Assembly: GCF_040183065.1 (NCBI RefSeq)
Contig: NW_027185499.1
Span: 2,728,001-2,792,000 of the forward strand
Length of the DNA stretch: 64,000 nucleotides
From: Periplaneta americana
Taxonomy: Eukaryota > Arthropoda > Insecta > Blattodea > Blattidae
Reading direction: 5' to 3'
In this document: positions 431-59,986 of the stretch, in pieces
Layout: every line of letters starts with the position of its first letter
How positions within the stretch are numbered: position 1 is the first letter of the stretch
Made by a program: the position numbers and the translations under genes
Notes under the pieces: generated by a model
What the model saw: only the letters and a program-made list of their open reading frames with translations
What the model was told of the DNA's origin: nothing
Databases searched by the model: none

Positions 431-886
431 GTGTCTTCAAATCCCACAAGTAATGAAGAGCTACATCAGTTGTGGACTGAATGGTCGAAGAAGAAGAAAT
501 ACGAATATCATGATGTAGTGAATTGGTGGGGATATTATATTAAATCTCAATTAAAGAAATATTTCCAAAGACAAACTTATCTTCAATATCATGCCGATGA
601 ACATAATCTTAATTTCTATCATCAATGCCTGCTCGACTTGCATCATAGTTCCATATCACACTCAGAACGACGCACTCAACTCAACAAATATAAAGCTAAA
701 ATTTTGGGAATTCTTAGACAGCGAATGGAGAGCTTAAAAGTTCGAAGCGGACTAATCCCTCCCATAACAGACGAAAGAATCAACCTCTTCCATCTTATAC
801 AGACGCATAATAGAAAACGCTCTACCATGATCAGAAAAATTCAAGACAACACAGGCCAGCACTATACTACACAACATGATACATAA
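431..886 (+). CDS. LINE linker between endonuclease and RT
   Basis: This 151-codon open stretch has no recognisable catalytic motif. It is rich in Lys, Gln and His and lies where L1/Tx1 ORF2 proteins carry the helical linker between endonuclease and RT. It runs on from the endonuclease frame (the initial codon is a GTG inside the reading, not a genuine start) and ends by a frameshift near 880: the alternative frame reads ISNAFLLHFSNIF straight into the RT segment at 901. I infer one ancestral ORF2. Confidence 0.6.
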   Translation: MSSNPTSNEELHQLWTEWSKKKKYEYHDVVNWWGYYIKSQLKKYFQRQTYLQYHADEHNLNFYHQCLLDLHHSSISHSERRTQLNKYKAKILGILRQRMESLKVRSGLIPPITDERINLFHLIQTHNRKRSTMIRKIQDNTGQHYTTQHDT

Positions 887-900
887 GTAACGCATTTCTG

Positions 901-3066
901 TTGCATTTTAGCAATATTTTTCAAGAAAAATCCCACAATTCACCTTCTCTACGATATTTTGATTCAGTCAAGATCGCTACCGTATCAGAAGAAGAAAACC
1001 TATTGCTTGAACAGCCGGTCACTAAAGAAGAAGTTTACACGGCGCTTTGTCAAGGTAAGCGCTCAAGAACACCCGGAATTGATGGAATTCCACTAGAATT
1101 TTATTTAACCTGCTGGGAAATAATTAAGGAGGACTTAACAACAGTGATAAATGCAATTCTACATCGGAAGAAGCTCTGTGCATCGCAACAGAAAGGTATT
1201 ATTGTTCTTATTAAGAAAAAAGTCGATGCGGTCACCGTGCACGATTACAGGCCTATTACATTGCTCACATATGACTATAAAATTATAGCTAGAATATTAG
1301 CCAACCGCATAACACCGCTTCTAAGTAAGCTCCTACATCCAGCACAGTACTGTGGCTCGTCTGAGCGTACTATCTTTGATGTGGTGTGTTCCCTGAGAGA
1401 TTGTGTTGCTACTTCGCTTGAAGATAAAATCAAGAGATTATTGTGTTCCATCGATTTTGAACGTGCCTTCGACAACGTGAATCATAATTTCATGTTCCAG
1501 TGTCTAGCATGGTACGGTTTCAGTGACACTTTTATCTCCTATATCAAATGTCTTTATAGTGGAATTAATAGTCAGATTCAAATAAATGGTTTTCGTTCAC
1601 CAACGATCAATATCACTAAATCGATTAGACAAGGTTGTCCTCTTTCTATGTTATTGTTTACTTTAGTACTTAATCCACTTATATGTAAATTGCATAATTC
1701 TATTACTGGTATTTCCCTCAGGGAGCAGAAGTTAGCGGTAGTTGCGTATGCGGATGACGTCAGTGTTTTGCTTTCAAATGAAAAGGATGTTGAACAACTT
1801 AAAACTATTTTGAATGAATTCAGTAACATTTCAGGGCTACGTATCAACGAGCAAAAATCCAAGATTCTTCCGATAGGACAGTGGCAAGTACTTCCGCAGA
1901 TACCTCCACTGCAAACAGTGAAGACCATCAAAATTCTTGGGATTGTGTTTTCGGCTTCTATAGGAGAGATGATACATCTCAATTGGAAGAGAATTGTTCA
2001 AAAGATTAAAGTAACAGCGCAAGACTTATATTTTCGTGATTTGTGTTTGTATCAACGAAGTTGGGCTGTACAGACGTATATACTGTCCAAGTGTTGGTAT
2101 TTAGCCCAAGTGTTACCATTAACAAATTCTTACGCACGACAAATTAATTGTGCAATATCGTGGTATATTTAGAGAGGTTGTGTGTTTCGGGTGCCTATGT
2201 CAACATTAACCTGCAGTCCATCACAAGGTGGTATTGGATTAATACATGTCATAGACAAATGTCTTGCGTTATTCCTAAGCAGAGGGAGAAGGATTCAACT
2301 TTCTAATGCTTGTTACTCAGCGGCATGGCTCCAACATTGGTTACTTAAATCGGACCTTCGAAATCCACCTGATCTTCATGTAATCCCAAGGTCGTTACTA
2401 TATCTTCAAGTTTATTTGCTGGAATGGTGTTACATGGACTCACTAGGTGCAGATCCGAATACGAGACTTGTTCAGGTAGTGTACCAGAATCTTAGAGGAA
2501 GGTCTCCTCCACAACAAATGCGTATACAACGAATCGCCCCTACCAATGTGAATTATGATCAACTCTGGCGTAACATCAGCTACCCTGCTTTGTCTTTTGA
2601 TGTCCGCTCCACCTGGTTTAAGGCGGTACATGACGTGGTGGCCACACGCACTCCCCTTTTCTCCATCAGGTTGAGTCTAACGGAAGTTTGCCCCTCGTGT
2701 CAACAACAGGACACTATCCTGCACCGCATCTCAACATGTTCTTCTGTTAGTGACAATTTTGAAGCTGCCACGAGTTATGTACGGAACCTAGGTTTAATCA
2801 ACTGTTCACCCGAGAAGTTCCTTCGTCCCGATTTTCAAATTTCACCCCGTCCTAGACTAAATGCCATCTTGTTGGTTTTAGGTAATACAATTTCTTATGT
2901 GTTGCAAAATCATGGAGCTTTAGACAAGGCTGTATATTTGGATTTTCTCAAACGGACACGGTGGAAGACGCGACAGGACAGTCAACACAAGATTATGTTT
3001 GGCAGTTTCATTGACATTGTAGAAAGGTTCAAAGATCACAGGGAAAGTGTTAAACTTATACATTAA
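901..3066 (+). pseudogene. LINE reverse transcriptase and C-terminal region
   Basis: RT domain with fingers/palm motifs in order: RTPGIDGIPLEFY (about residue 60), YRPITLLTYDYKIIARILANR, IDFERAFDNVNHN (first catalytic Asp), RQGCPLS, and YADDVSVLL (catalytic AYADD). The thumb follows. The reading stops at TAG 2170-2172 and continues in the same frame (TGG to TAG is the simplest change) into 294 more codons with a CPSCQQQ...HRISTC cysteine/histidine motif typical of L1/Tx1 C-termini, ending at TAA 3066. Only one stop in 2.1 kb suggests recent activity. Confidence 0.85.
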
Positions 3067-3814
3067 TTTACTTTTATTGTTGTATTCATTCGTATTTTAT
3101 GTATAGTATGAGAACGGTATAATAAAAAAGTGGCTTTAAAAATAATAAAAGGTGGTGGCGCTTACAGCTACGAACAAGTTCGAATTTTACTGTGAATAAA
3201 AGTATAGGGATAAATTAATTTCATTTCTTAAATAAAATTCGAAATTAGTTTTGTTTCAGTGTATTGAATTTATTTTTCTTTAAAGCTATACGTGCGTTAG
3301 AAATAACTTTTTTTCGCTCTTCAACTTTTGATTCACATACACTTAGCGGCAAAAAGAATGGGCCGACTCTTGGTCGATAGAAATGCTAAGTTCTATCGCG
3401 CGGTTCACTCGTGTAAACGTAACGCACTGCAAGGCATTGCTGTGGTGTCTCTTCATTGAAAGTCGTCCGTCTATAATGTAATAACCCTTACGAGCAGTGT
3501 GTGGCCCAGTGATAAGAAGGTTGACATCCGTATCAGGAGTTATGAGTTCGCCTCCCGGTGCAGTAAAATTATTTCTTTTATTTTCACTTTTACTTAATTT
3601 ATTAGTTTAAATGTGAAATGGCATTTGTTAACAAACTTCGTTATGCCTGCTTTGTAAAAATATTATTGTCCATCACCTGTGGGCTATTAATAGGTGACAC
3701 CTGGCCTGTATAAACAAACATACTTGTTGCGCATCCTAAAAACGGACGCATATTAAACACAAATAAATAATTAAATTAACAAAAACAAACAATTTGTTAG
3801 GATATTAACAAAAC

Positions 3815-4655: not shown

Positions 4656-6052
4656 TTCGGCATAATCCGTGATTTTCCTGTTCATATTCGCTCCGGTTGA
4701 TTTTGTATTTATCAATTTTATTATTATTTCACTCTTCAAGGGTTCTGATGTATCTAGAATCAACCCGCCATTCGATTTTATTACATATTTTAGAATCTTA
4801 AACAAAATACAGCAAATTTAAATGGTTTAATTATGTGTTACCTGGTAAACTATGGCTTTGACGAGACGAGCATGCGCAATGTTATGTCTCTTGAACTTAA
4901 AAAATTGTCGGCTGGCCCATTCTTTTTGCCGCTAAGTGTACATACTGTGTACTACCTATTTATCCTGTTCATTACATTCGCTAGCAACCATTTTATTACG
5001 AAGATTAAAACACAGAATTATATTGCATTTTAGATGGACTCTGCAGCGACGCGACGTACCACAGCGGTAGCTCAACATCCAGCTTGACTACACAGAGTAA
5101 TGCAGCCAGTCTGTCAGAAGGTACAGTAATTGTTTACATTCTGAGGTGGTGGCGCTTTCAGCTACGAACAAGTTCGAATTTTGCTGTGAATAAAAGTATA
5201 GGGATAAATTAATTTCATTTCTTAAATAAAATTCGAAATTACTTTTGTCTCAGTGTATTGAATTTATTTTTCTTTAAAGCTATACATGCGATATAAATAA
5301 CTTTTCTTCGTTCTTCAACTTTTGATTCACTTACATACTGTCTCGTACCTATTTATCCTGTTCATTACATTCGTTAACAATCATTTTATTACGAAGATTA
5401 AAGCACAGAATTATATTGCGTTTCAGATGGACTCTGCAGCGACCCGACGTGCCACAGCGAGGAAAGCTCAACATCCAGCTTGACTACACTGTGCAGCACA
5501 GTCCATATGTTAAAAGGTACAGCAATTGTTTACATTCTGAGGCGGTGGCGCTTTCAGCCACGAACAAGTTCGAATTTTACAGTAAATAAAAGTATGGCAA
5601 TAAATTAATTTCATTCCTTAAATAAAATTCGAAATTACTTTTGTTTCAGTTTATTGAATTTATTTTTCTTTAAGGCTATACGTGCGTTAGAAGTAACTTT
5701 ACTTCGCGCTTCAATTTTGGATTCGCGTACATAGCGTGTACTACCTATTTATCATGTTCATTACATTCGCTAAAAATTATTTTATTACGACGATTGAAAC
5801 ACAGAATTATATTGCATTTTAGATGGACAGCACAGCGAGCCCGACCTGAGGTACTTCTGCTACTACTACGCCAGCAGAGAATCCAGCTTGACTGCACAGA
5901 GCAGCGAAGCCAGTCTTTTAGAAGGTACAATAATTGTTTACATTCTGAAGTGGTGGCGCTTTCAGCTATGAACAAGTTCGAATTTTACTGTAGGCTAAAT
6001 AAAAGAATAGGGATAAATTAATTTCATTTTTTAAAAGTAAGATGAAAGAATT

Positions 6053-7181
6053 CATCAGTTTATTGAATTTATTGAAAGAATTATATCAGGCAAGGGTAAA
6101 CATAATCAAAGATGAGAATGGTGACTTGCTTGCAGACGCTCATTCAATCCTGAACAGATGGAAAAACTATTTCGGACAACTACTAAATATACATAGGCCG
6201 AAATTGAAATACAAACTGCTGAGCCATTTATACCCGAACCCACACTTTCTGAAGTCGAAATTGCGATAGAAATCTGAAAAATTATAAGTCTCCAGGTATC
6301 GATCAAATTCCAGCAGAATTAATACAAAAGGATGGAAGCACATTATCTAACGAAATTTATAAGCTTGTACCTGCTATTTGGGAGAAGGAAATTGTACCAG
6401 AACAATGGAAGGAGTCCATAATCGTACCTATATTTAAGAAAGGGGACAAGACTATAGTAACTTTCGAGGAATATCACTTTTGTTGACGTCGTACAAAATT
6501 TTGTCCAATATTCTTTTGAGAAGATTAACTCCATATGTAGATGAAATTATTGGGGATCATCAGTGTGGTTTTAGGCGTAATAGATCGACTATTGACCAGA
6601 TATTTTGTATTCGACAGATAATGGAGAAAAAATGGGAGGATAAGGGTACAGTGCATCAGTTATTCATAGATTTCAAAAATACATATGACTCGGTTAAGAG
6701 AGAAGTTTTATATGATATTTTTATTGAATTTGGTATTCCCAAGAAATTAGTTCGGTTAATTAAAATATGTCTCAGTGAAAAGTACAGCAGAGTCCGTAGG
6801 TCTATAGGTCAGTTTCTGTCAGATGCGTTTCCAATTCACTGCAGGCTAAAACAAGGAGATGCACTATCACTTTTACTTTTTAACTTTGCTCTAGAGTATG
6901 CCATTAGGAAAGTTCAGAATAACAGAGAGGGTTTGGAATTGAATGAGTTACATCAGCTGCTTGTCTATGTGGATGACGTGAATATGTTAGGAGAAAATCC
7001 ACAAACGATTAAGGGAAACACGGGAATTTTACTGGAAGCAAGTAAAGAGGTTTGGAAGTAAATCCCGAAAAGACAAAGTATATGATTATGTCTCGTGACG
7101 AGAATATTGGAAAAAAAATTGGAAATTTATCTTTTTAAGAGGTGGAGAAGTTCAAATATCTTGGAGCAACAGTAACAAATG
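6053..7181 (+). pseudogene. RTE LINE reverse transcriptase segment
   Basis: Readings include NGDLLADAHSILNRWKNYF (linker), [74 protein letters not shown] (first catalytic Asp), [14 protein letters not shown] and YVDDVNML (the usual YADD has Val). This is the RTE group whose proteins are often misnamed craniofacial development protein 2 in insect annotations. Frame changes near 6270 and 6470 and a stop after 7061 break it. The endonuclease is absent through 5' truncation. Confidence 0.85.
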
Positions 7182-14100: not shown

Positions 14101-14282
14101 GAGCCATCTGTAAATATAAGAATATGGGTAAATTAATTTCATTTTTAATGAAAGTACAGTATAAACTTTCTTTATTTCAGATCCCTGAATTTATTTTTCT
14201 TTGAGATTATACCTATATTAGGATTAACCATTACTACGTCCTTCGTCTTTTTAATTCCTGTCAGACTTTACTTTTATAATTG

Positions 14283-14677
14283 GAATTGTATTCCAATGGA
14301 TACCATCCCATTGTGGAATTCTGGGAAACGAGAATGCGGATGCTTTAGCAAAGAAGGGCAGCACTGCTACTTACAGACCTGTTACTAAATCTACGTATTA
14401 ATCTGTGAAGAGGTTTATTAAATCTACATATTTAGACTTCAACAAACAAAATTTGATAACTCAATCCCAAGGGAAAAAATGGAACACTCTGCATCAAAAT
14501 CCACAGTTAATTCCCGATTTACCACGAAAATCGTATGTAGCTGCATTTAGATTGGCAACAGGACATGATTGTTTGGCCAAACACCTGCATAGAATTGGAA
14601 TATATCAGTCCCCTAACTGCCCATTGTGCAACTCAAACCAAGAAATGGATTCGGAACACCTCAAAATCTGTGCTTGA
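14283..14677 (+). pseudogene. LINE RNase H and Cys/His tail
   Basis: RNase H of a LINE ORF2: IPSHCGILGNENADALAKKG contains the Asp that completes the active site in this family (removes RNA from RNA-DNA hybrid during integration). The C-terminal CPLCN...HLKIC motif follows after about 95 residues. Only the last 130 or so codons of the ancestral protein are present. Confidence 0.8.
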
Positions 14678-14770
14678 GTGGCTGGTCATGATAATATCTT
14701 TGAAAAATATTGGAGTGCAAGAGGTCAAATGACTTTATTGTCAAACGCCTGGCATTAGAAAACAACAACA
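14283..14770 (+). mobile_element. 5'-truncated LINE insertion with 12-bp duplication
   Basis: A 488-bp insertion flanked by identical ACTTTTATAATT at 14271-14282 and 14771-14782, ending in (AAC)n. The coding part reads VFQWIPSHCGILGNENADALAKKGS, an RNase H domain with the GNE..D..A signature, then FRLATGHDCLAKHLHRIGI and CPLCNSNQEMDSEHLKIC, the zinc-knuckle tail of I/Ingi/Outcast-type LINEs. One stop near 14401 and a terminal stop at 14677. Cleanest single-copy retroinsertion in the left part. Confidence 0.9.
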
Positions 14771-14814
14771 ACTTTTATAATTCACTTATTGTTAGCAGTC
14801 TGGTGACGTGCATT

Positions 14815-14890
14815 TTGTCATGCTACTGCCCGTCCGAGTGGTTAAGTCACATGGTCGTCAAAACAGGGGAAATCACATGATAATCACTTA
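14815..14890 (+). other. Possible SINE head (tRNA-Leu-like A box)
   Basis: CCGTCCGAGTGGTTAAGTC resembles the D-arm of tRNA-Leu/Ser genes, followed by GGGGAAATC rather than a proper B box. Could be a decayed SINE head just left of the 285-bp array. Confidence 0.25.
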
Positions 14891-15018
14891 CTTAGACTAA
14901 GAGAGCCTTTTTCTTTAATTATTTTAAACAGTTGTATAATACTACGTAAACTGCAAATCAAGATTTCAGGTATAACTCCCTGTAAAGTTGATTTGAATAA
15001 TTTCGAGGGAAAAATTGT

Positions 15019-15089
15019 TCCGGAGCCGGGTATCGAACCCGGGGCCTTTGGTTTAACGTACCAACGCTCTACCACTGAGCTACTCGGGA
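15019..15089 (-). tRNA. tRNA-like unit 1 (Ala-type body, GTT anticodon position)
   Basis: Minus-strand cloverleaf: acceptor TCCCGAG/CTCCGGA (6 of 7 pairs, C-C at 4:69), D arm GCTC-AGTGGTA-GAGC, anticodon arm TTGGT-ACGTTAA-ACCAA, variable AGGCC, T arm CCGGG-TTCGATA-CCCGG. D and T arms match tRNA-Ala genes almost exactly, but the loop reads ACGTTAA: position 33 is C instead of T, anticodon GTT (Asn). Hence a SINE-type pseudo-tRNA is likelier than a working Asn or Ala tRNA. Internal A and B boxes intact. Confidence 0.6.
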
Positions 15090-15303
15090 ACTCTAACCGA
15101 CACCGATCCAATTTTTCCCTCTATATCCACAGACCTCAAAGTGGGCTGACAACCGTCAAGCAACCAACTTCGAGTGCACACTAACTCCGTGTGACTTAAA
15201 TTGTGGTTTTCTGTTAACGAACAGTGACGTGTATTATGCAAATCAAGATTTCAGGTATAACTCCCTGTAAAGTTGATTTGAATAATTTCGAGGGAAAAAT
15301 TGT

Positions 15304-15374
15304 TCCTGAGCCGGGTATCGAACCCGGGGCCTTTGGTTTAACGTACCAACGCTCTACCACTGAGCTACTCGGGA
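15304..15374 (-). tRNA. tRNA-like unit 2
   Basis: Acceptor 3' strand CTCAGGA, so pair 4:69 is C-A instead of C-C; the rest equals unit 1. Confidence 0.55.
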
Positions 15375-15588
15375 ACTCTAACCGACACCGATCCAATTTT
15401 TCCCTCTATATCCACAGACCTCAAAGTGGGCTGACAACCGTCAAGCAACTAACTTCGAGTGCACACTAACTCCGTGTGACTTAAATTGTGGTTTTCTGTT
15501 AACGAACAGTGACGTGTATTATGCAAATCAAGATTTCAGGTATAACTCCCTGTAAGGTTGATTTGAATAATTTCGAGGGAAAAATTGT

Positions 15589-15659
15589 TCCGGAGCCGGG
15601 TATCGAACCCGGGGCCTTTGGTTTAACGTACCAACGATCTACCACTGAGCTACTCGGGA
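15589..15659 (-). tRNA. tRNA-like unit 3
   Basis: D-stem 3' strand is GATC instead of GAGC, losing one pair; boxes otherwise intact. Confidence 0.5.
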
Positions 15660-15873
15660 ACTCTAACCGACACCGATCCAATTTTTCCCTCTATATCCAC
15701 AGACCTCAAAGTGGGCTGACAACCGTCAAGCAACCAACTTCGAGTGCACACTAACTCCGTGTGACTTAAATTGTGGTTTTCTGTTAACGAACAGTGACGT
15801 GTATTATGCAAATCAAGATTTCAGGTATAACTCCCTGTAAAGTTGATTTGAATAATTTCGAGGAAAAAATTGT

Positions 15874-15944
15874 TCCGGAGCCGGGTATCGAACCCGAGGC
15901 CTTTGGTTTAACGTACCAACGCTCTACCACTGAGCTACTCGGGA
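15874..15944 (-). tRNA. tRNA-like unit 4
   Basis: T-stem begins TCGGG, giving a wobble at the first T-stem pair. Confidence 0.55.
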
Positions 15945-16158
15945 ACTCTAACCGACACCGATCCAATTTTTCCCTCTATATCCACAGACCTCAAAGTGGG
16001 CTGACAACCGTCAAGCAACCAACTTCGAGTGCACACTAACTCCGTGTGACTTAAATTGTGGTTTTCTGTTAACGAACAGTGACGTGTATTATGCAAATCA
16101 AGATTTCAGGTATAACTCCCTGTAAAGTTGATTTGAATAATTTCGAGGGAAAAATTGT

Positions 16159-16229
16159 TCCTGAGCCGGGTATCGAACCCGGGGCCTTTGGTTTAACGTA
16201 CCACCGCTCTACCACTGAGCTACTCGGGA
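16159..16229 (-). tRNA. tRNA-like unit 5
   Basis: Anticodon stem starts GTGGT, breaking its first pair; acceptor variant as in unit 2. Confidence 0.5.
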
Positions 16230-16443
16230 ACTCTAACCGACACCGATCCAATTTTTCCCTCTATGTCCACAGACCTCAAAGTGGGCTGACAACCGTCAAG
16301 CAACCAACTTCGAGTGCACACTAACTCCGTGTGACTTAAATTGTGGTTTTCTGTTAACGAACAGTGACGTGTATTATGCAAATCAAGATTTCAGGTATAA
16401 CTCCCTGTAAAGTTGATTTGAATAATTTCGAGGAAAAAATTGT

Positions 16444-16514
16444 TCCGGAGCCGGGTATCGAACCCGAGGCCTTTGGTTTAACGTACCAACGCTCTACCAC
16501 TGAGCTACTCGGGA
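16444..16514 (-). tRNA. tRNA-like unit 6
   Basis: Same T-stem variant as unit 4, two units away. Confidence 0.55.
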
Positions 16515-16728
16515 ACTCTAACCGACACCGATCCAATTTTTCCCTCTATATCCACAGACCTCAAAGTGGGCTGACAACCGTCAAGCAACCAACTTCGAGT
16601 GCACACTAACTCCGTGTGACTTAAATTGTGGTTTTCTGTTAACGAACAGTGACGTGTATTATGCAAATCAAGATTTCAGGTATAACTCCCTGTAAAGTTG
16701 ATTTGAATAATTTCGAGGGAAAAATTGT

Positions 16729-16799
16729 TCCTGAGCCGGGTATCGAACCCGGGGCCTTTGGTTTAACGTACCAACGCTCTACCACTGAGCTACTCGGGA
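16729..16799 (-). tRNA. tRNA-like unit 7
   Basis: Acceptor C-A variant at 4:69; all arms intact. Confidence 0.55.
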
Positions 16800-17013
16800 A
16801 CTCTAACCGACACCGATCCAATTTTTCCCTCTATATCCACAGACCTCAAAGTGGGCTGACAACCGTCAAGCAACCAACTTCGAGTGCACACTAACTCCGT
16901 GTGACTTAAATTGTGGTTTTCTGTTAACGAACAGTGACGTGTATTATGCAAATCAAGATTTCAGGTATAACTCCCTGTAAGGTTGATTTGAATAATTTCG
17001 AGGGAAAAATTGT

Positions 17014-17084
17014 TCCGGAGCCGGGTATCGAACCCGGGGCCTTTGGTTTAACGTACCAACGCTCTACCACTGAGCTACTCGGGA
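17014..17084 (-). tRNA. tRNA-like unit 8
   Basis: Identical to unit 1 within the cloverleaf; the 5' flank differs (GGAGG for GTGTC). Confidence 0.55.
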
Positions 17085-17298
17085 ACTCTAACCTCCACCG
17101 ATCCAATTTTTCCCTCTATATCCACAGACCTCAAAGTGAGCTGACAACCGTCAAGCAACCAACTTCGAGTGCACACTAACTCCGTGTGACTTAAATTGTG
17201 GTTTTCTGTTAACGAACAGTGACGTGTATTATGCAAATCAAGATTTCAGGTATAACTCCCTGTAAAGTTGATTTGAATAATTTCGAGGGAAAAATTGT

Positions 17299-17369
17299 TC
17301 CTGAGCCGGGTATCGAACCCTGGGCCTTTGGTTTAACGTACCAACGCTCTACCACTGAGCTACTCGGGA
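17299..17369 (-). tRNA. tRNA-like unit 9
   Basis: T-stem 5' strand CAGGG disrupts the second T-stem pair; acceptor C-A variant. Confidence 0.5.
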
Positions 17370-17583
17370 ACTCTAACCGACACCGATCCAATTTTTCCCT
17401 CTATATCCACAGACCTCAAAGTGGGCTGACAACCGTCAAGCAACCAACTTCGAGTGCACACTAACTCCGTGTGACTTAAATTGTGGTTTTCTGTTAACGA
17501 ACAGTGACGTGTATTATGCAAATCAAGATTTCAGGTATAACTCCATGTAAAGTTGATTTGAATAATTTCGAGGGAAAAATTGT

Positions 17584-17654
17584 TCCGGAGCCGGGTATCG
17601 AACCCTGGGCCTTTGGTTTAACGTACCAACGCTCTACCACTGAGCTACTCGGGA
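17584..17654 (-). tRNA. tRNA-like unit 10
   Basis: T-stem change shared with unit 9; acceptor as in unit 1. Confidence 0.5.
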
Positions 17655-17868
17655 ACTCTAACCGACACCGATCCAATTTTTCCCTCTATATCCACAGACC
17701 TCAAAGTGGGCTGACAACCGTCAAGCAACCAACTTCGAGTGCACACTAACTCCGTGTGACTTAAATTGTGGTTTTCTGTTAACGAACAGTGACGTGTATT
17801 ATGCAAATCAAGATTTCAGGTATAACTCCATGTAAAGTTGATTTGAATAATTTCGAGGGAAAAATTGT

Positions 17869-17939
17869 TCCGGAGCCGGGTATCGAACCCGGGGCCTTTG
17901 GTTTAACGTACCAACGCTCTACCACTGAGCTACTCGGGA
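17869..17939 (-). tRNA. tRNA-like unit 11
   Basis: Cloverleaf identical to unit 1; shares the CCATG change outside it with unit 10. Confidence 0.55.
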
Positions 17940-18153
17940 ACTCTAACCGACACCGATCCAATTTTTCCCTCTATATCCACAGACCTCAAAGTGGGCTGAC
18001 AACCGTCAAGCAACCAACTTCGAGTGCACACTAACTCCGTGTGACTTAAATTGTGGTTTTCTGTTAACGAACAGTGACGTGTATTATGCAAATCAAGATT
18101 TCAGGTATAACTCCCTGTAAAGTTGATTTGAATAATTTCGAGGGAAAAATTGT

Positions 18154-18224
18154 TCCGGAGCCGGGTATCGAACCCGGGGCCTTTGGTTTAACGTACCAAC
18201 GCTCTACCACTGAGCTACTCGGGA
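18154..18224 (-). tRNA. tRNA-like unit 12
   Basis: Cloverleaf identical to unit 1; the 5' flanking A run is shortened. Confidence 0.55.
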
Positions 18225-18438
18225 ACTCTAACCGACACCGATCCAATTTTTTCCTCTATATCTACAGACCTCAAAGTGGGCTGACAACCGTCAAGCAACC
18301 AACTTCGAGTGCACACTAACTCCGTGTGACTTAAATTGTGGTTTTCTGTTAACGGACAGTGACGTGTATTATGCAAATCAAGATTTCAGGTATAACTCCC
18401 TGTAAAGTTGATTTGAATAATTTCGAGGGAAAAATTGT

Positions 18439-18509
18439 TCCGGAGCCGGGTATCGAACCCGGGGCCTTTGGTTTAACGTACCAACGCTCTACCACTGAGC
18501 TACTCGAGA
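18439..18509 (-). tRNA. tRNA-like unit 13
   Basis: Acceptor 5' strand TCTCGAG, a T-G wobble at 3:70. Confidence 0.55.
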
Positions 18510-18723
18510 ACTCTAACCGACACCGATCCAATTTTTCCCTCTATATCCACAGACCTCAAAGTGGGCTGACAACCGTCAAGCAACTAACTTCGAGTGCACA
18601 CTAACTCCGTGTGACTTAAATTGTGGTTTTCTGTTAACGAACAGTGACGTGTATTATGCAAATCAAGATTTCAGGTATAACTCCCTGTAAAGTTGATTTG
18701 AATAATTTCGAGGGTAAAATTTT

Positions 18724-18794
18724 TCCGGAGCCGGGTATCGAACCCGGGGCCTTTGGTTTAACGTACCAACGCTCTACCACTGAGCTACTCGGGA
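18724..18794 (-). tRNA. tRNA-like unit 14
   Basis: Cloverleaf as unit 1; downstream run changed to AAAAATTTTAC, leaving T4 as terminator. Confidence 0.5.
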
Positions 18795-19008
18795 ACTCTA
18801 ACCGACACCGATCCAATTTTTCCCTCTATATCCACAGACCTCAAAGTGGGCTGACAACCGTCAAGCAACCAACTTCGAGTGCACACTAACTCCGTGTGAC
18901 TTAAATTGTGGTCTTCTGTTAACGAATAGTGACGTGTATTATGCAAATCAAGATTTCAGGTATAACTCCCTGTAAAGTAGATTTGAATAATTTCGAGGGA
19001 AAAATTTT

Positions 19009-19079
19009 TCCGGAGCCGGGTATCGAACCCGGGGCCTTTGGTTTAACGTACCAACGCTCTACCACTGAGCTACTCGGGA
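19009..19079 (-). tRNA. tRNA-like unit 15
   Basis: Cloverleaf as unit 1, followed by AAAAATTTTTCCC. Confidence 0.55.
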
Positions 19080-19293
19080 ACTCTAACCGACACCGATCCA
19101 ATTTTTCCCTCTATATCCACAGGCCTCAAAGTGGGCTGACAACCGTCAAGCAACCAACTTCGAGTGCACACTAACTCCGTGTGACTTAAATTGTGGTCTT
19201 CTGTTAACGAATAGTGACGTGTATTATGCAAATCAAGATTTCAGGTATAACTCCCTGTAAAGTTGATTTGAATAATTTCGAGGGTAAAATTTT

Positions 19294-19364
19294 TCCGGAG
19301 CCGGGTATCGAACCCGGGGCCTTTGGTTTAACGTACCAACGCTCTACCACAGAGCTACTCGGGA
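19294..19364 (-). tRNA. tRNA-like unit 16
   Basis: A14 of the D loop is T (CTCTGTGG), weakening the A box. This unit also carries the 1-bp deletion that makes it 284 bp. Confidence 0.5.
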
Positions 19365-19577
19365 ACTCTAACCGACACCGATCCAATTTTTCCCTCTATA
19401 TCCACAGACCTCAAAGTGGGCTGACAACCGTCAGCAACCAACTTCGAGTGCACACTAACTCCGTGTGACTCAAATTGTGGTTTTCTGTTAACGAACAGTG
19501 ACGTGTATTATGCAAATCAAGATTTCAGGTATAACTCCCTGTAAGGTAGATTTGAATAATTTCGAGGGAAAAATTGT

Positions 19578-19648
19578 TCCGGATCCGTGTATCGAACCCG
19601 GGGCCTTTGGTTTAACGTACCAACGCTCTACCACTGAGCTACTCGGGA
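19578..19648 (-). tRNA. tRNA-like unit 17
   Basis: T-stem 3' strand CACGG and acceptor ATCCGGA, two mismatches; the most diverged complete copy, at the array edge. Confidence 0.45.
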
Positions 19649-19881
19649 ACTCTAACCGACACCGATCCAATTTTTCCCTCTATATCCACAGACCTCAAAG
19701 TGGGCTGACAACCGTCAAGCAACCAACTTCGAGTGCACACTAACTCCGTGTGACTTAAATTGTGGTTTTCTGTTAACGAACAGTGACGTGTATTATGCAA
19801 ATCAAGATTTCAGGTATAACTCCCTGTAAAGTTGATTTGAATAATTTCGAGGGAAAAATTATTCCGGAGCCGGGTATCGAA

Positions 19882-20390
19882 TATGTTACCACTGCCACTG
19901 GGTGTTTACCCATTCGCAGTGTGGATAAATAGATGCATGCAAATCAAATTTGGCAACAACGCTGAGTAACCTGCTTCAAAACAGGGCAACCAATCTCCTT
20001 GGCGATTAAATCTGCGTGTTGATAAGGCTATCGAAGTTGAGTATCATCTTTAAGTCAGGATAACTAACCTTCGTGAAGACGTCTGGAAGCGACTTTTGAC
20101 TTCTATTAGAGTATGAAGCTCCAGGGTGTAATCAAATACGGAAAAGAGATGGTAATATGATCAAAGAAAATGTTGACCGGAATCCTCGAGAAACAAGTTA
20201 CAAGAAGAACAAGATCTAGAACCACCTGTTCAGCAACGTTCAGCAGGCAGTAATCTACACAGACGTAAGTACGAGGGAGCTGAGTTCAATTTCCCTCTCC
20301 ATAGCTATACTGCAGAGCGGATGGCAGTTCAGTACAGGTTATTCGATAAACAACTTACAATGTCATTCACAGTTTAGGAATATCATATAT
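19882..20390. other. Right flank of the satellite, nothing recognised
   Basis: Sequence changes abruptly at 19882 inside the T arm of the partial unit. No family resemblance seen up to 20390. Confidence 0.5.
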
Positions 20391-20391
20391 T

Positions 20392-20515
20392 AGGCCTATT
20401 TATTTATGGAGGAAGTCGTCGTAATTCAAGTGAGGCAAGAAGCATGCAACGTCAAAGTTTTCCTCAAAGAAGGTTGCCTAATGAGCAGGCTTCGAGATTT
20501 TGGACCCGATACAAT
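20392..20515 (+). pseudogene. DUF4817-type transposase N-terminus, fragment 1
   Basis: The plus-strand frame reads IYGGSRRNSSEARSMQRQSFPQRRLPNEQASRF, the helix-turn-helix block at the start of many insect IS630-type transposases (usual form YGEARGNSSEA..Y...FPNRRLP). The normal continuation TFVAVSQRLRETGS is not here but appears 0.9 kb downstream at 21430, suggesting one element opened by later DNA. Confidence 0.6.
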
Positions 20516-29376: not shown

Positions 29377-29580
29377 AAAATTGAATTATGGTTTATTTTA
29401 TGACACTCGCAACTGCAGGGGTTATATCAGCGTCGCTAGTGTGCCGGAATTTTGTCCCCGAAGGATTCTTTTAAATGCCAGTAAATCTACTGACATGAAC
29501 CTGTCTCATTTAAACACATTTAAATGCCATCGACCTGGGCCGGGATCGAACCCGCAACCGACTATGCTACCGAGGCCGAC
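29377..29580 (-). mobile_element. tRNA-derived SINE, complete
   Basis: Minus strand: head CCTCGGTAGCATAGTCGG, B box GGGTTCGATCCCGG, body GTCGATGGCATTTAAATG ... GGACAAAATTCCGGCACAC ... CGACGCTGATATAACC. Flanked by TCTGCATATTAA (29365-29376) and TCTGCATATCAA (29581-29592), an 11 of 12 target duplication. It splits the hAT coding sequence. Confidence 0.88.
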
Positions 29581-29592
29581 TCTGCATATCAA

Positions 29593-30240
29593 GCTTTGTT
29601 AATGCCATACAGACAATACGGAACAGTGCACAGTTGAGCAGCGAGATCTGTGAAAATGAAAACCCTTAAATGCGTCGTAAGGTCGAAGGGATTCAGACAA
29701 GGGTTGCGGCAGCCAAGGAAGTGTGTGACCTCATTATCACACAAGCTAACACCCGATTCCAGTTCATAGATCATCTGATATCTTCTCTTCTCTGTCAAGA
29801 AAAATTTGAATGCTACAAAAGCTCATTTCCTGAAAATGACCTAAATGTGTGTGTGAAGCTTTTTGCAATGTTCGATAAAGACAAAAAAAAACGGAACTCA
29901 CTGTGTTGTATCAGAGACAAGAATTCAGAAATATCAGTGACGCAGTCAATCTCTTGCACTTTCTTCTATCTGAGAACTTGCGGGCCTCATTTTGAGAAGT
30001 TGTGAAACTACTACGCATAGCTATCACCATACCAATGACAACTTCCGAACCAGAACGTTGCCTTTAGTGCTTGAAGATAGTATAATCCTATCTCAGAAAT
30101 ACGATGAGAGAAGAGAGACTGACCGCATTAGCTATATTTTCCATTGTAAAGACTATGTTAAACGACATATCGGATTTTAATAAGAAGATGCTTCAAAAGT
30201 TTGCAACCTACAAGACAAGGCGCATGGAACTAATTTTTAA
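29593..30240 (+). pseudogene. hAT transposase C-terminus with dimerisation domain
   Basis: Readings: AAKEVCDLIITQANTRFQFIDHLI, CYKSSFPENDLNVCVKLF, then in other frames LRIAITIPMTTSEPERC and ATYKTRRMELIFK, the hAT dimerisation domain (PMTTSEPERCFS...RR.EFIFK). This domain pairs transposase monomers in the nucleus. Frames shift at about 29890, 30010 and 30180; the FSTLKRIKTFLRN segment is lost. Confidence 0.82.
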
Positions 30241-40176: not shown

Positions 40177-41289
40177 TTATAATATGAGGGCCATTGGAAG
40201 TCGGCTCTTGATTCTGGTGGGAAATGTGGACTTCTTTCCGAGAGAGTAATGGACGGCGCCAGGAACATTTTCTAGGTTGTCATAGAACTTCTTACCTTGT
40301 GAATGAATAAACTGTTTGATTGTGTCAATACCAGTTTCTCTGTGTAGTTGGCTGTTATGGACAAACCAAGGAGAATTGAGTGAAATTCGTAGGACTTTAT
40401 TTTGAAATGACTGGATGTGATTAATTTCACTTATTGCAGCTCCTCCCCAGACAGGACAGGCATAAAGCAGTAGAGGTCGTAATAGAGATGTGTAAAGTAG
40501 CATGCGATTTTGTAGCTTTAGAGATGATTTCTTGTTGAGGAGCGGATATAATTTAGCTAGTCTTGAGTAGGCCAATTTAAGTTTGTTGTTGATGTGATGT
40601 TTCCATGATAGACGGCGATCTAAGTGCACTCCAAGATATTTTACAGCTTCATCCTTTGGTTTCCACGGTATCACGTTGGTTGAAAGATTTATGCATGGAG
40701 GATTAGCAGGATGACACAAAGTAAATATCATTGCTTCGCATTTATTGTAGTTCAGTGCGATGCGCCAATTTTCAAGCCAAGGGCATATGATGTTCAAGGC
40801 TTCCTGAAGGTGATTTGAGGCTATGTTAATGTTGCGATGGGTTGCATAAATAGCTGTATCGTCTGCATGCATAGCAATTTGTGCAGTTGGTGTTGCAGGA
40901 ATGTCCGAGGTATATACATTGAATAATATCGGACCTAAGATAGAGCCTTGTGGAACGCCAACACTAATGGGTCTAACAGAGGAGTGAGTACAACCCACTC
41001 TGACTGAGAATGTGTGATTTGACAAGAAACTAGTCATTATGTTGCATAGGTAGTCTGGAACGCCGGACTTGTGTAATTTGTACCGAAGACCTTTATGCCA
41101 AACTCGATCAAATGCTTGAGTGAAGTCAAGAAATGCGACTGCAGTCTGTTCTTTGTTTTCAAAGCCCTGTGCAATTTGTTCAGTGATACGAAGCACTTGA
41201 TGGTTGGTAGAATGATTTCGACGAAAGCCAAACTGATATGGAGGTAGGATGGATGCTTGAAGTAGAAACGTATCCAAGCGTTTCAGCAA
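40177..41289 (-). pseudogene. Jockey ORF2, reverse transcriptase main part
   Basis: Palm motifs: PYQFGFRRNHSTNHQ, VAFLDFTQAFDRVWH (first Asp), GVPQGSILGPILFNVY, MHADDTAIYA (HADD in place of YADD), then VKYLGVHLDRRLSWKHH and a thumb/tail LLLYACPVWGGAA. Open for 370 codons to the natural stop at 40177. A frame change near 41285 separates it from its N-terminal portion. Confidence 0.92.
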
Positions 41290-41819
41290 AACCTTTTCAA
41301 AGATTTTGGATATAGTTGATAAAAACTTATGGGACGGTAACTTGTTGGATTCGAAGCAGGTTTTCCAGGTTTATGAATTACAATTATTATTGCATGTTTC
41401 CAAGTATCAGGGAAATATTCCAGACGAAGTAGAGCATTGAATAATGAAGCTAAGTTTGCTAGAGCTTTACGAGTAAGATACTTCAATACAAAGTTTGGGA
41501 TGAGATCGTATCCAGGAGATATCTTTGTTGGAAGTTTCTGAATTATTGAGTGGATCTCATTTGGCGAGGTGAAGTTTACGGGCAATGATGCTGAAGGATA
41601 ATTATTCGGAAAATGTTCTATTTCTTCGTTGAATTCTTTATTCATGATTGGGTTTGGTATGAAAGAGGCTTGGAAGGTGTCTGCGAAAATTTCACACTTT
41701 TCATTGTCACATGCATATTGACAACCGTCTTTTTGTAAAGGTGGAATTATACATGGCTCTTTCAATACTCTCTTTGTCTCTTTCCAAAGGGAGGAATCTT
41801 CTGGAGATAAAGTGGCTAG
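41283..41819 (-). pseudogene. Jockey ORF2, RT fingers
   Basis: Reads ATLSPEDSSLWKETKRVLKEPCIIPPL, FADTFQASFIPNPIMN and KLPTKISPGYDLIPNFVLKYL, then HAIIIVIHKPGKPASNPTSYRPIS. It adjoins the RTE insertion at 41831 and resumes on the far side at 42957. Confidence 0.88.
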
Positions 41820-41830
41820 ATGGCGTTGAT

Positions 41831-42946
41831 GTATTGTGGGTCCCTATCACCACGGCATGGCGCGTCCTCAGGTTCCGGATAGAGGAGACGGCCTCCAGAT
41901 ATGGAGGGTAACTGCGAATATATTGAATAAGCAGTCGTGGACAGCCGACAAGGGGTGGTCCTCCAGCTTGGGGGTTGGGCGAAGGGCTAACAACCCATCA
42001 CCGTAAAAAACAGCTTGTTACGTATCCCTATAATAAGAATATGCCATTAGGAAAGTTCAGGATAACAGGCAGGGTTTGGAATTGAACGGGTTACATCAGC
42101 TTCTTGTCTATGCGGGTGACGTGAATATGTTAGGAGAAAATACACAAACGATTAGGGAAAACACGGAAATTTTACTTGAAGCAAGTAGAGCGATCGGTTT
42201 GGAAGTAAATCCCGAAAAGACTAAGTATATGATTATGTCTCGTGACCAGAATATTGTACGAAATGGAAATATAAAAATTGGAGATTTATCCTTCGAAGAG
42301 GTGGAAAAATTCAAATATCTTGGAGCAACAGTAAAAAAATATAAATGACACTCGGGAGGAAATTAAACGCAGAATAAATATGGGAAATGCGTGTTATTAT
42401 TCGGTTGAGAAGCTCTTATCATCCAGTCTGCTGTCCAAAAATCTGAAAGTTAGAATTTATAAAACAGTTATATTACCGGTTGTTCTGTATGGTTGTGAAA
42501 CTTGGACTCTCACTCTGAGAGAGGAACATAGGTTCAGGGTGTTTGAGAATAAGGTGCTAAGGAAAATATTTGGGGCTAAGCGGGATGAAGTTACAGGAGA
42601 ATGGAGAAAGTTACACAACACAGAACTGCACGCATTGTATTCTTCACCTGACATAATTAGGAACATAAAATCGAGACGTTTGAGATGGGCAGGACATGTA
42701 GCACGTATGGGCGAATCCAGAAATGCATATAGAGTGTTAGTTGGGAGACCGGAGGGAAATAGACCTTTAGGGAGGCCGAGACGTAGATGGGAGGATAATA
42801 TTAAAATGGATTTGAGGGAGGTGGGGTATGATGATAGAGACTGGATTAATCTTGCACAGGATAGGGACCGCTGGCGGGCTTATGTGAGGGCGGCAATGAA
42901 CCTTCGGGTTCCTTAAAAGCCATTTGTAAGTAAGTAAGTAAGTAAC
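41831..42946 (+). mobile_element. RTE LINE, internally deleted, inserted in Jockey
   Basis: 1116 bp flanked by ATGGCGTTGAT at 41820-41830 and 42947-42957. The first 200 bp (GACGGCCTCCAGATATGGAG ... CAACCCATCACCG) look like the RTE 5' region; at about 42034 the sequence jumps into RT at ATGCCATTAGGAAAG and runs to the (TAAG)n tail. The endonuclease and most RT motifs are absent although both termini are kept. Confidence 0.9.
42046..42916 (+). pseudogene. RTE ORF2, last third
   Basis: [17 protein letters not shown] (YADD replaced by YAGD), [33 protein letters not shown], one frame change near 42345, then VILPVVLYGCETWTLTLREEHR, RRLRWAGHVARMGESRNAYRVL and RRRWEDNIKMDLREVGYDDRDW to the family C-terminus AAMNLRVP at 42916. 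Confidence 0.9.
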
Positions 42947-42957
42947 ATGGCGTTGAT

Positions 42958-43470
42958 AAGATATGAATCGGTATTCGTCCAACAATTTTTTTACCTCACT
43001 GGTTAGTTGATTTAGGTGGTGATGCTGCCATGGTTCTCTATGTTTTTGCCACAATCGACGGGTTTGACGTTTTTCCTTTATAAGCCGTTTTATTTTTGAG
43101 AGAAGAGTTTCGTGATAAGATTTTCTATGTACCCGTCTTGTCGGAACCGTTGCTGCTCGAATAGATGAAGCAATAACATCAGTGAAAGTACGAACTGCTG
43201 CATCAGCATCGGTGATTGTTTTCAAGTTACTGGTGGGCTGCAAAACATCGTCTAGGTTTAGTTGAAAGTTGTTCCAGTTTATAGTACCCTCGATAAGTCG
43301 ATTGGGAGGAGGACGAAGCATAGGATTGTCATCAAATGAAATCAGAACAGGACAATGATCGGAGTCTAATTCATGTAATACACGCTGAGGTGTTCTGAAT
43401 ATATTTGTGCAAAGCTATGTCCAGTATATCAGGTAATATGTTAGGTCGATAGAACGTTGGTTCCAAAGGT
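42958..43470 (-). pseudogene. Jockey ORF2, endonuclease end and linker
   Basis: NIDAPLEPTFYRPNILPDILDIAL, then in another frame RVLHELDSDHCPVLISFDDN (SDH block of the APE endonuclease) and NRLIEGTINWNNFQLNLDDV, SIRAATVPTRRVHRKSY, and the basic linker LIKEKRQTRRLWQKHR. One frame change near 43395. Confidence 0.85.
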
Positions 43471-43496
43471 GCATCGATATTAATAGAGTTTTCCTC

Positions 43497-44021
43497 TTAG
43501 ATAGTTAGTAATCGTCTTCCGTTAGGTGTGGTTACACGACATCCCCATATTTGATGTTTACTATTTAAGTCTCCTAAAAGTATTGTTGGTGTAGTATTAG
43601 AAAAAAGATTAACAACATCTTGAGAATTCAAACGTACTTTTGGTGATTTATATGCTGAAATTATAGTAAACTGTGGAAGGTTATGTGAAGTTATCTTAAT
43701 AGCACAGGCTTCTAAACAGTTCAGTTCTGGCAGAAGTATTGAGTAATGCTGTATATTTTTCCTAATTATAATTGCCACACCACCAGAGGCTTCGGGAGCA
43801 ACACGATCAGTTCTATAAATATTGTAACCAGGAACTGTAAACTGCTCTGGGTGAATAAGATGAGTCTCAGCAACACACGCTACAGCCACATTGTGTCGAG
43901 AGAGAAATTCTAAGAAAGCTCCTCGCTTAGCTTTGATTCCATTTACGTTCCAGTTTACAATAATCAGTTCAGAGAACGTTTTATTGACATTAATGTTCAT
44001 TATTGAGAAGGCCTGTGACAA
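43497..44021 (-). pseudogene. Jockey ORF2, APE endonuclease N-terminal part
   Basis: Begins MSQAFSIMNINVNKTFSE at 44021. VNWNVNGIKAKR (Asn metal ligand), CVAETHL (catalytic Glu), GVAIIIRKNI, FTIISAYKSP and ILLGDLNSKHQIWG follow in the normal order. Ends at a TAG near 43499 after RRLLTI; similarity continues beyond it in the same direction. Confidence 0.9.
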
Positions 44022-44215
44022 GTTGGAGGAGGAAAGCTTTAATCACAGGTAGGTGTGGTTTCAGGGAAGTTATCACTAATTGAATTAAGTTTCCAATAAC
44101 ATCTGTAGCAGGAGCGGTATCTTGAATTGAAGTATTGGTAACATTTGTTTTAATAGGTAGTGAGTGTGGCCAAGAAGGTGTAGATGGCGAGGCAGAAGGA
44201 GAATTTGCTGTAAGA

Positions 44216-45280
44216 TTAGGAACATTTTTGCAAATTTAAGGTTGGCGGTGATGTTGAGAGGTTTTGCTGTGGGGGATTTGAATCAGACTTTTTCTTTAAG
44301 TCAAGACAATAACTACAACCCTTAAAATTTGCTGAGTGTGCTCCTCCACAGTTTATACATTTTGGTTCGGCTTCTTTAGGTTTAGTGCATTCAGAAAAGT
44401 GATGATTTTGAGGACACTTCACACAGCGTGGTGTGAGATAGCAAAAGTTTTTAGTGTGATCATAACGCTGACATTTTGTACACTGAGGAATGTTTCGGGG
44501 TTTTCGGCGATATTCTACTCTAATGAGAGCATGTTGAATTTGTTTTATATCAAAAATCTTCTTACCCTGTTCATTGTTGTCTAATTCCACTGCGCAGAGC
44601 GGCATAGGTTGTCTGTCTCTATAGAAAAGCCTGGTAACTTTAATAACAGGCAGGTTGAGGGATTTAAGCTCCAAGATAACATCATTATCTGTTAGAGAAT
44701 GATGAACATAGCGTAAAACGACTTCCAGTCTCTTGGTATCTGGATTACGAAAAGTATGATAAGGGAGCTGTGATTCTTCTAAGAATTTTGTAACTAAACG
44801 AAAGTCAACAGCAGTAGTGTTAATTTTTAAGACTTTGTTCTGTTGTTGTGTTGAATACTCATTGGAAACAATGGAATCTATGTCGCATATTATCTGCTGG
44901 TAATTATTTACTTCGTGAAGAAATATTGGTGGTACTCTGATTTTGGGAGTAGGCCTAGTAGAGGTTGAATCTTGTGTTGATGCTGGAGTCACATTATCAA
45001 TTTCATCATCCATCTCCTCGAGAGGGGAGAACTTGTTGTGGACGGTAGTTAGATCGACTACATATTTAGAATTTATTTTAGAAGCTGAAATTGTTTGTTT
45101 TTTATTTGGTGTGAAAAAACTTTCATCAGAATTAGAAGACTTATATTCAGTTATTTCTTCATATTGTCGTTTTGTGACTAATTTTGAAGGCTGTATCAAG
45201 GAACGTGATGTAGAAGAGTTAACTGGAGGGCCTTGATTTGGGAAGGATAATTGGCCTTCGTCTTGTTGATGTGATTGCAT
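44216..45280 (-). CDS. Jockey ORF1 nucleic-acid-binding protein
   Basis: 354 codons open from ATG 45280. Low-complexity N-terminus, then the zinc-knuckle-associated domain (about residues 150-260: YHTFRNPDTKRLEVVLRYVH), and three CCHC knuckles near the end: CTKCQRYDHTKNFC, CVKCPQNHHFSEC, CINCGGAHSANFKGC. Such proteins coat the LINE RNA. A probable 1-nt shift near 44225 ends it at LNLQKCS; the alternative frame continues NVPNLTANSPSASPSTPSW to about 43998, overlapping the ORF2 start, so natural length is about 430. Confidence 0.9.
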   Translation of the reverse strand: MQSHQQDEGQLSFPNQGPPVNSSTSRSLIQPSKLVTKRQYEEITEYKSSNSDESFFTPNKKQTISASKINSKYVVDLTTVHNKFSPLEEMDDEIDNVTPASTQDSTSTRPTPKIRVPPIFLHEVNNYQQIICDIDSIVSNEYSTQQQNKVLKINTTAVDFRLVTKFLEESQLPYHTFRNPDTKRLEVVLRYVHHSLTDNDVILELKSLNLPVIKVTRLFYRDRQPMPLCAVELDNNEQGKKIFDIKQIQHALIRVEYRRKPRNIPQCTKCQRYDHTKNFCYLTPRCVKCPQNHHFSECTKPKEAEPKCINCGGAHSANFKGCSYCLDLKKKSDSNPPQQNLSTSPPTLNLQKCS

Positions 45281-45515
45281 ATTGAAGGCTATGATAAAAA
45301 CAAAACACTATCTGTTTCAGATAACCAAAGTGTTCGTATTTAACTTATTAAATATTATATTATTTGAGTAAAACAAATGTTCCTAATATTTCCACACTTT
45401 CTTCAGCTTTCAATAATACAAATAAAGTTTAAATTCACTTACGAACTTTGCTGGATGTAGTTATAAGCACTTAAATAATAATAATATCACCATCGAACAC
45501 AAACTTAAAGTAATG

Positions 45516-50359: not shown

Positions 50360-50596
50360 GCAAATACGAATAAAGATGCTTCATTAAAATTCAGATTGCA
50401 AGAGGCAGGAACGCTTGACAATGCCATACAGCATTACTGGAAGCTTGTGATAGAGAGACTTCACCATATCGTACCGTGGCTAGGTGGGCATATGCATTTC
50501 GCAACGGGAGAGAAGATGTTCATAAAAACGTGGAGCAGGAAGACCGCAATCGGCAAATGATGATGTGCATGTGAGCACTACTGGAGAACCTATGAA
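50360..50596 (+). pseudogene. mariner-family transposase N-terminus
   Basis: Readings in two frames: ASLKIQIARG, SPYRTVARWAYAFRNGREDVH and the remains of a GRPQSANDDVH block. PYRTVARW is the second helix-turn-helix signature of insect mariners. It stops where the LINE at 50597 begins. Confidence 0.7.
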
Positions 50597-59783: not shown

Positions 59784-59934
59784 TTACAATGAAGTAACAG
59801 ACTCCCAAGACTAAAGTGTAGTATCACTGGGAGTATAATAAAGGTTCAAACAAAACTTATGATTTAATTGTGATCCTTCTGTCAGTTTCTCAGAATATGT
59901 GGTTAAAATTTGATTTACTTTTAACATTCTTCAA

Positions 59935-59986
59935 CAGAGACAATGATCCAAATTGTTACAATGAAGTAACAGACTCCCAAGACTAA
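59935..59986 (+). CDS. Candidate 52-nt terminal mini-exon A
   Basis: Acceptor ending TTCAA directly before CAGAGACAATG is weaker than in the next copies; encodes RDNDPNCYNEVTDSQD then TAA; AATAAA at 60009. Confidence 0.25.

Follow-up and report, generated by a model that had tools for sequence, protein, structure and literature searches.

Known systems and the cockroach array

Satellite DNAs in which every monomer carries a transfer RNA (tRNA)-like unit for RNA polymerase III (Pol III) have already been described in amphibians and reptiles, and the array analyzed here, from the cockroach Periplaneta americana, is a further case. It lies at positions 14952-19881 of a 64-kb stretch of contig NW_027185499.1 (the window, meaning all of the DNA analyzed) and is made of 285-bp units, each with a tRNA-like sequence. 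In the passages of PMC10702118 on the PolIII/TAN (Hirt) family of the newt Cynops pyrrhogaster, a tandem unit of about 360 nt with a tRNA-like sequence is reported to be transcribed in vitro; compared by description, the cockroach array also has a tandem unit with a tRNA-like sequence, but it differs in lineage, in unit length (285 bp versus about 360 nt) and in a foldback structure that those passages do not mention for PolIII/TAN. Xenopus OAX, Rana/polIII and Hydromantes Hy/polIII are treated there as tandem families, with doubts about their origin from short interspersed elements (SINEs). According to the excerpts of PMC10702118 and PMC9659126, OAX and Hy/polIII have been claimed in the literature to be SINE-related, and the tables of the latter include the Hydromantes family and a Xenopus family. 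As far as their descriptions go, Xenopus OAX/satellite I, Rana/polIII and Hy/polIII share with the array tandem units with similarity to tRNA. The SINE-derived satellites of squamates (Squam1/2/3), with units cut from tRNA-headed SINEs in the account of PMC10702118, are likewise tRNA-headed tandem units, some with added DNA of unknown origin; however, they are traced there to named dispersed SINE families, and some of their units keep a region derived from a long interspersed element, whereas for the array no parent is known and the one isolated copy is diverged. The initial annotation of this DNA had called satellites with a Pol III unit in each monomer rare, which is fair for their numbers but not for their kind, since the newt PolIII/TAN, Xenopus OAX/satellite I, Rana/polIII and squamate families are in print. 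The array adds one more case, in insect DNA, to these few satellites.

The tRNA heads of the German cockroach SINEs Sbg1-9, whose A and B boxes are canonical or one letter off in the excerpt of PMC9191728, and those of the termite SINEs Talua-Talud, resemble the array by description. The Sbg elements, however, are 306-658 bp long with target duplications of 10-15 bp and tails (same excerpt), and neither duplications nor tails were found for the array. The hp-CG4068 locus of Drosophila consists, like the array, of tandem hairpin units, for which the passage of PMC10317233 mentions no tRNA-like part. Among tRNA-derived satellites, the foldback is the unusual trait of the array: nothing of this sort is described in the literature passages on related satellites, a comparison that the repeat libraries Repbase and SINEBase lie outside, and no description of the 285-bp unit was met in literature titles and abstract openings, whose coverage lacks most subscription journals. 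We consider it moderately probable that the array is a short satellite of recent date and that its monomer took up a dispersed, non-decoding tRNA-derived element. The foldback layout, common to the array and to an isolated copy elsewhere in the window, offers a testable lead on the origin of such elements and also on why tRNA-derived elements might become tandem arrays.

tRNA-like sequence and candidate Pol III signals

A minus-strand tRNA-like sequence of 72 nt, including the discriminator base, is present in all 17 complete units, from 15018-15089 in unit 1 to its counterpart at 19577-19648 (minus strand) in the last of the 17. The Rfam tRNA family RF00005 matches every unit above its gathering score of 29, at 45.4-61.3 bits (60.7 bits in unit 1) and with E values from 7.7e-11 to 1.9e-6, and ARAGORN names tRNA-Asn(GTT) on the minus strand in every unit. 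The A box TAGCTCAGTGG, which also conforms to TRGYNNARNNG, is intact in 16 of the 17, as is the exact consensus B box GGTTCGATACC; the looser form RGTTCRANNC occurs in all of them, and the canonical form RGTTCRANTCC, as printed in an excerpt of PMC9191728, in none of the 17. A run of T residues starts 3 nt past the end of the 72-nt match in each unit (T5 in 13, T6 in 2, T4 in 2), and in unit 1 the T5 run at 15010-15014 on the minus strand is a candidate Pol III terminator. Such a set of tRNA matches, boxes and T-runs in 17 of 17 units is far beyond chance. The A and B boxes of the initial annotation are therefore confirmed, and its T4-T5 run within 6 nt holds for every unit, except that two of the runs are T6.

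The same annotation had described a 71-nt cloverleaf in each unit. The tRNA assignment stands, with a length of 72 nt once the discriminator is counted, but energy minimization of the bare 72 nt yields the cloverleaf in none of the 17 units: the acceptor stem and T-arm mostly form, and the D and anticodon regions pair otherwise. The bare 72 nt of unit 1 gives z -1.93 against shuffles, with 6 of 200 as good. Unmodified tRNAs often misfold in energy-based predictions, so that a non-cloverleaf energy fold is weak evidence either way, and the putative cloverleaf is assigned from the covariance-model and ARAGORN matches. No Rfam family other than tRNA attains its gathering score in the window. Matches to MIR1031, alpha_tmRNA and Six3os1 in the array, and to mir-297, snR66 and YenS elsewhere in the window, lie far below their cut-offs and were set aside as chance or as an effect of hairpins. 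No ribozyme family is among the matches down to E 5 for 14500-20500 or E 10 for the whole window, and a hammerhead retrozyme or other ribozyme satellite, which would carry a self-cleaving motif in the unit, was rejected on these matches.

Foldback around the tRNA-like sequence

The tRNA-like sequence of the units is enclosed in a foldback, formed by its 5' leader on one side and, on the other, by the T-arm, acceptor and trailer that this leader mirrors. In unit 1 the whole foldback spans 15000-15126, with arms of 42 nt each at 15000-15041 and 15085-15126, which are 71% complementary and separated by 43 nt; in the plus-strand layout the right arm is the 5' leader, and the left arm comprises T-arm, acceptor and trailer. 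Its outer part is a 13-bp inverted repeat, GAGGGAAAAATTG / CAATTTTTCCCTC, with the trailer-side arm at 15005-15017 and the partner arm, in the 5' leader, at 15109-15121. This repeat is perfect in 11 of the 17 units and has one or two mismatches in units 4, 6, 12, 14, 15 and 16. Arm complementarity as strong as that of unit 1 was reached by 8 of 27466 random pieces of the window, and a stricter inverted-repeat search of the whole window returned 18 inverted repeats, nine of which are the foldbacks of nine different units.

The predicted RNA fold of 15003-15122 on the minus strand of unit 1 has -56 kcal/mol (z -5.56), and across the 17 units the corresponding 120-nt stretch has fold energies of -47.7 to -57.8 kcal/mol, the z value being for unit 1 only; the whole of unit 1 folds with z -5.1. 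A long hairpin in each unit, which is a mark of tandem hairpin-RNA loci, was thus found in 17 of 17 units. Furthermore, a second, small foldback lies at the border of units 1 and 2 (15233-15286; arms 15233-15255 and 15264-15286, 23 nt, 83% complementary, 8 nt between), where the fold of 15233-15288 has z -4.77. The remaining 110 bp of the unit show no special fold (z -0.4, -1.4) and no match elsewhere in the window. The inverted repeat around the tRNA-like sequence is absent from the initial annotation, and the isolated copy lies outside the region that it covered.

Probable isolated relative elsewhere in the window

Outside the array, the tRNA-like element has one probable relative in the window, a diverged minus-strand tRNA-like sequence at 57431-57502 (Rfam tRNA, 47.4 bits) with the loop ACGTAGA, hence C33, and the trailer AGAATTTTTCTCT. 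It shares with the satellite C33, the stretch GAGCGTT.G.ACG and the trailer AATTTTTC(C/T)CT, and it too is surrounded by a foldback, at 57418-57536, with arms of 30 nt (57426-57455 and 57498-57527; 73% complementary) that top the non-array inverted repeats listed for the window. The loop between the mirrored parts measures 42 nt in the isolated copy versus 43 nt in the array. Its foldback folds with z -3.03, and arm complementarity as strong was found in 8 of 27466 random window pieces, in a test with T-arm and acceptor that was devised after its fold had suggested that layout. A uniform foldback test covered the listed A/B-box-like places of the window, less one at the window's end: unit 1 scores 34 (reached by 11 of 18414 random pieces) and the isolated copy 32 (17 of 18414), and the scores of the 22 remaining places are 8-16, reached by at least 2369 of 18414.

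In a consensus fold of the unit and the isolated copy, all 7 outer pairs are kept, one via a change on both sides, and 5 anticodon-stem pairs are kept, two via changes on both sides; several D- and anticodon-stem pairs of the isolated copy are altered, with the stems kept. Taken over two elements, the covariation, with both partners changed in 5 of 26 predicted pairs, is suggestive at best. As judged from the sequences, the shared layout of array and isolated copy is likely to be real and their common descent is probable. Degenerate A/B-box-like places also occur at 29500-29601 (minus strand) and 62348-62440 (plus strand, followed by T7), neither with a foldback leader.

Array structure and unit variation

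Tandem Repeats Finder reports 14952-19881 as one tandem array with period 285, 17.3 copies and 98% matches. Cut at its own repeat word, the array comprises 17 complete units head to tail, of which unit 16 has 284 bp and the other 16 have 285 bp, and an 86-nt partial unit, which closes the right end and breaks off within the B box; the seventeen complete head-to-tail units described previously were thus recovered. Any two units differ on average in 4.87 of 285 columns (1.7%), and 28 of the 285 columns are variable among the 17 aligned units. Mean differences are 4.5 at a spacing of one unit, 4.2 at two, 5.0-6.0 at 7-15 and 4.0 at 16 (a single pair). Variants are shared by scattered units (column 215 in units 2, 5, 7 and 9), units 4 and 6 are identical and neighbors are slightly more alike, a pattern that fits unequal exchange or conversion. 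Head-to-tail tandem units with high mutual identity, a mark of tRNA-derived satellites, are therefore what the array consists of.

In BLAST searches with E up to 1, the 285-bp unit had no match in a 396-bp array, a 172-bp array or the right flank, and its two matches in the left flank (E 0.68) are at chance level. The unit patterns had no matches in viral contigs or prokaryote genome contigs, a result of little weight because such collections are not expected to contain insect DNA. The right end of the array, in the B box, adjoins a short hairpin, CACTGC...GCAGTG, at 19882-19925, perhaps the end of another repeat.

Decoding ability and constraint

The anticodon loop of the units reads ACGTTAA, with C at position 33 in the Rfam alignment, and U33 is near-universal in elongator tRNAs. 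The acceptor stem has a mismatch in every unit (C.C in 13, C.A in 4), the discriminator base is A, where metazoan tRNA-Asn has G, and 9 of the 17 units have further changes within the tRNA-like part. Variable columns number 9 of 72 in the tRNA-like part versus 19 of 213 outside it (Fisher p 0.37), a comparison made within the array only; by our own placement on the consensus, stem columns account for 8 of the 9 (the mismatch column 215 among them), and the remaining one is A14. Were the rate of change 50% lower in the tRNA-like part than in the spacer, at least 9 of the 28 variable columns would fall in it with p 0.014; for a rate 70% lower, p would be 0.0006. These counts and rate tests indicate no extra conservation of the tRNA-like part, and the array bears no apparent sign of selection maintaining the Pol III unit; its youth (1.7% mean difference) accounts for the intact boxes and T-runs. 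The proposal in the initial annotation that the cluster supplies a small RNA at high dosage accordingly finds no support from constraint.

A functional tRNA-Asn gene should have U33 and an unbroken acceptor stem, and a tRNA part more conserved than its flanks; neither was found. Since C33 and the acceptor mismatch occur in all units and the tRNA-like part is as variable as the spacer, the units are probably no working tRNA-Asn genes. The 17 'tRNA-Asn genes' that a tRNA finder would output here, very probably not tRNA genes, may serve as a warning. It is well known that predicted tRNAs need not be working genes: those annotated as non-functional amount to 92.5% and 93% of the tRNA predictions in two earwig genomes in the excerpt of PMC9935246, and a passage of PMC2770079 assigns 2,342 of 2,368 tRNA-Gln-like predictions in Schistosoma mansoni to SINEs.

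Origin of the array

Of the two origins offered by the initial annotation, the conversion of a SINE into a satellite has the better support, if SINE is taken in the wider sense of a tRNA-derived element, because the sequence is not of decoding grade, is not protected from mutation and has an isolated relative with the same unusual layout. In the origin that we favor, the ancestral element would have been mobile and about 120 nt long, a tRNA-like Pol III unit with a leader mirroring its own T-arm, acceptor and trailer and thus able to fold back. Together with about 165 bp of other DNA, the captured element would have formed a 285-bp segment. Head-to-tail duplication of this segment would have produced the array, in which unequal exchange or conversion could have spread the copies and maintained their similarity. 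Both boxes and the T-run would have arrived with the captured element; they may still permit transcripts of about 80-90 nt, and any such Pol III RNA would be a passenger.

A plain SINE origin is not supported: the T-run right behind the head and the lack of a detected target duplication disfavor it. A classical SINE would have a head-to-tail transcript without an early terminator, whereas T4-T6 lies 3 nt past the head in 17 of 17 units and presumably terminates transcription, and it would have target site duplications, which were not found. Several points weigh against the capture of a dispersed element. The 285-bp unit is unlikely to be one SINE transcript, because the T5 behind the head is expected to stop Pol III. 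No other copy of the unit occurs within the 64-kb window but for an 18-nt chance match, and the isolated relative is diverged from the satellite unit, so that common descent is drawn from two elements. Neither around the isolated copy, with two choices of its putative ends, nor around the array are there target duplications beyond chance. A direct comparison of the leaders of isolated copy and unit 1 shows no likeness (16711 of 18432 random pieces are as good), for the trailer of the isolated copy by itself 577 of 18464 random pieces do equally well, and a shorter inverted-repeat test of trailer against leader in that copy was negative (5699 of 18442). Likewise, the inner part of the leader alone is not significant, with 1918 and 1013 of 27564 random pieces scoring as well; it is the arm as a whole that makes the foldback significant, with the outer 13-bp repeat contributing most in the satellite.

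Our results also raise the idea, which we regard as rather unlikely, that the array and the isolated copy represent an undescribed class of foldback tRNA elements of about 120 nt, whose leader is an inverted copy of T-arm, acceptor and trailer. Such elements may arise when reverse transcription halts in the T-arm, for example where a base of the T-loop is modified, and then resumes from the 5' end of the RNA by a backward jump. If this were true, one sequence could adopt two folds, a cloverleaf or a long hairpin, and so give a Pol III tRNA-like RNA or a hairpin RNA for RNA interference.

Alternative explanations

It is unlikely that the array is a Pol III cluster in which each unit yields a structured non-coding RNA of 80-90 nt, used by the host in high dosage. 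The A box in 16 of 17 units, with the loose B box and T4-T6 in all 17, would suit this function, and the predicted 87-nt transcript of unit 1 folds with z -2.86, only 1 of 200 shuffles being as good; the bare 72 nt are, however, less striking (z -1.93, 6 of 200), the Pol III unit has no extra conservation, no Rfam family but tRNA attains its gathering score, and units that are near-identical throughout would be expected to have intact boxes from youth alone.

The inverted repeats that bound the tRNA-like core in both the units and the isolated copy are also what would be seen in a tandemly amplified miniature inverted-repeat transposable element, a non-autonomous DNA transposon, with a tRNA-like core between terminal inverted repeats. 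This is improbable, as the arms extend into the tRNA T-arm, unlike ordinary terminal repeats, and no target duplication was found beside the foldback of the isolated copy.

We give little credence to a hairpin-RNA locus in which Pol II read-through would produce one 120-nt hairpin per unit, to be diced into small interfering RNAs by analogy with Drosophila hp-CG4068, whose tandem copies number 20 in D. melanogaster and 9 in D. simulans in the passage of PMC10317233. The fold energies of the 120-nt stretch in the 17 units (-47.7 to -57.8 kcal/mol) and the z values of unit 1 (-5.56, and -5.1 for the whole unit) agree with such a locus, but perfect pairing is limited to the outer 13 pairs, is absent even there in 6 of 17 units, and gives way to a loose middle. 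A foldback also surrounds the isolated copy, so that it probably came with the element; no target gene is known, and none was sought; and the MIR1031 matches, at 18-31 bits versus a cut-off of 100, may be a mere effect of long hairpins.

Finally, a true tandem cluster of tRNA-Asn(GTT) genes raising tRNA dosage, for which there is precedent in tandem tRNA gene arrays such as the human 1q23.3 repeat (PMC4041453) and which would match the 17 of 17 ARAGORN calls, Rfam scores of up to 61.3 bits and a T-run directly behind, is very improbable given C33, an acceptor stem with C.C in 13 units and C.A in 4, the discriminator A, extra changes in 9 of 17 units, a tRNA-like part that varies like the spacer and a non-cloverleaf minimum-energy fold in 17 of 17.

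Other repeats in the window

Among 10 reading frames scanned, of the 25 listed, RVT_1 scored above its curated cut-off in 4 and just below it in a fifth (28.8 versus 29.6 bits). Retrotransposon remnants, apparently of the non-LTR (long terminal repeat) type, occur at 880-3066, 6438-7061, 40177-45307, 50564-51103 and 53463-55043, with RVT_1 frames and one frame with PRE_C2HC. RVT_1 in several frames indicates that reverse-transcriptase elements, which could spread tRNA-derived RNAs, are common around the array. Together with a base composition of 36.7% G+C, the reverse-transcriptase frames are compatible with an insect or other arthropod, without proving it.

A 396-bp tandem repeat with 2.7 copies lies at 4938-6035, with related pieces at 3150-3348 and 14108-14244. 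A reverse-transcriptase frame is directly followed by parts of it at 3150-3341 (95%), and a diverged piece (about 72%) lies to the left of the satellite, at a distance of about 700 bp. Another young array, at 59784-60473, has a 172-bp unit in 4 tandem copies that are 98% alike.

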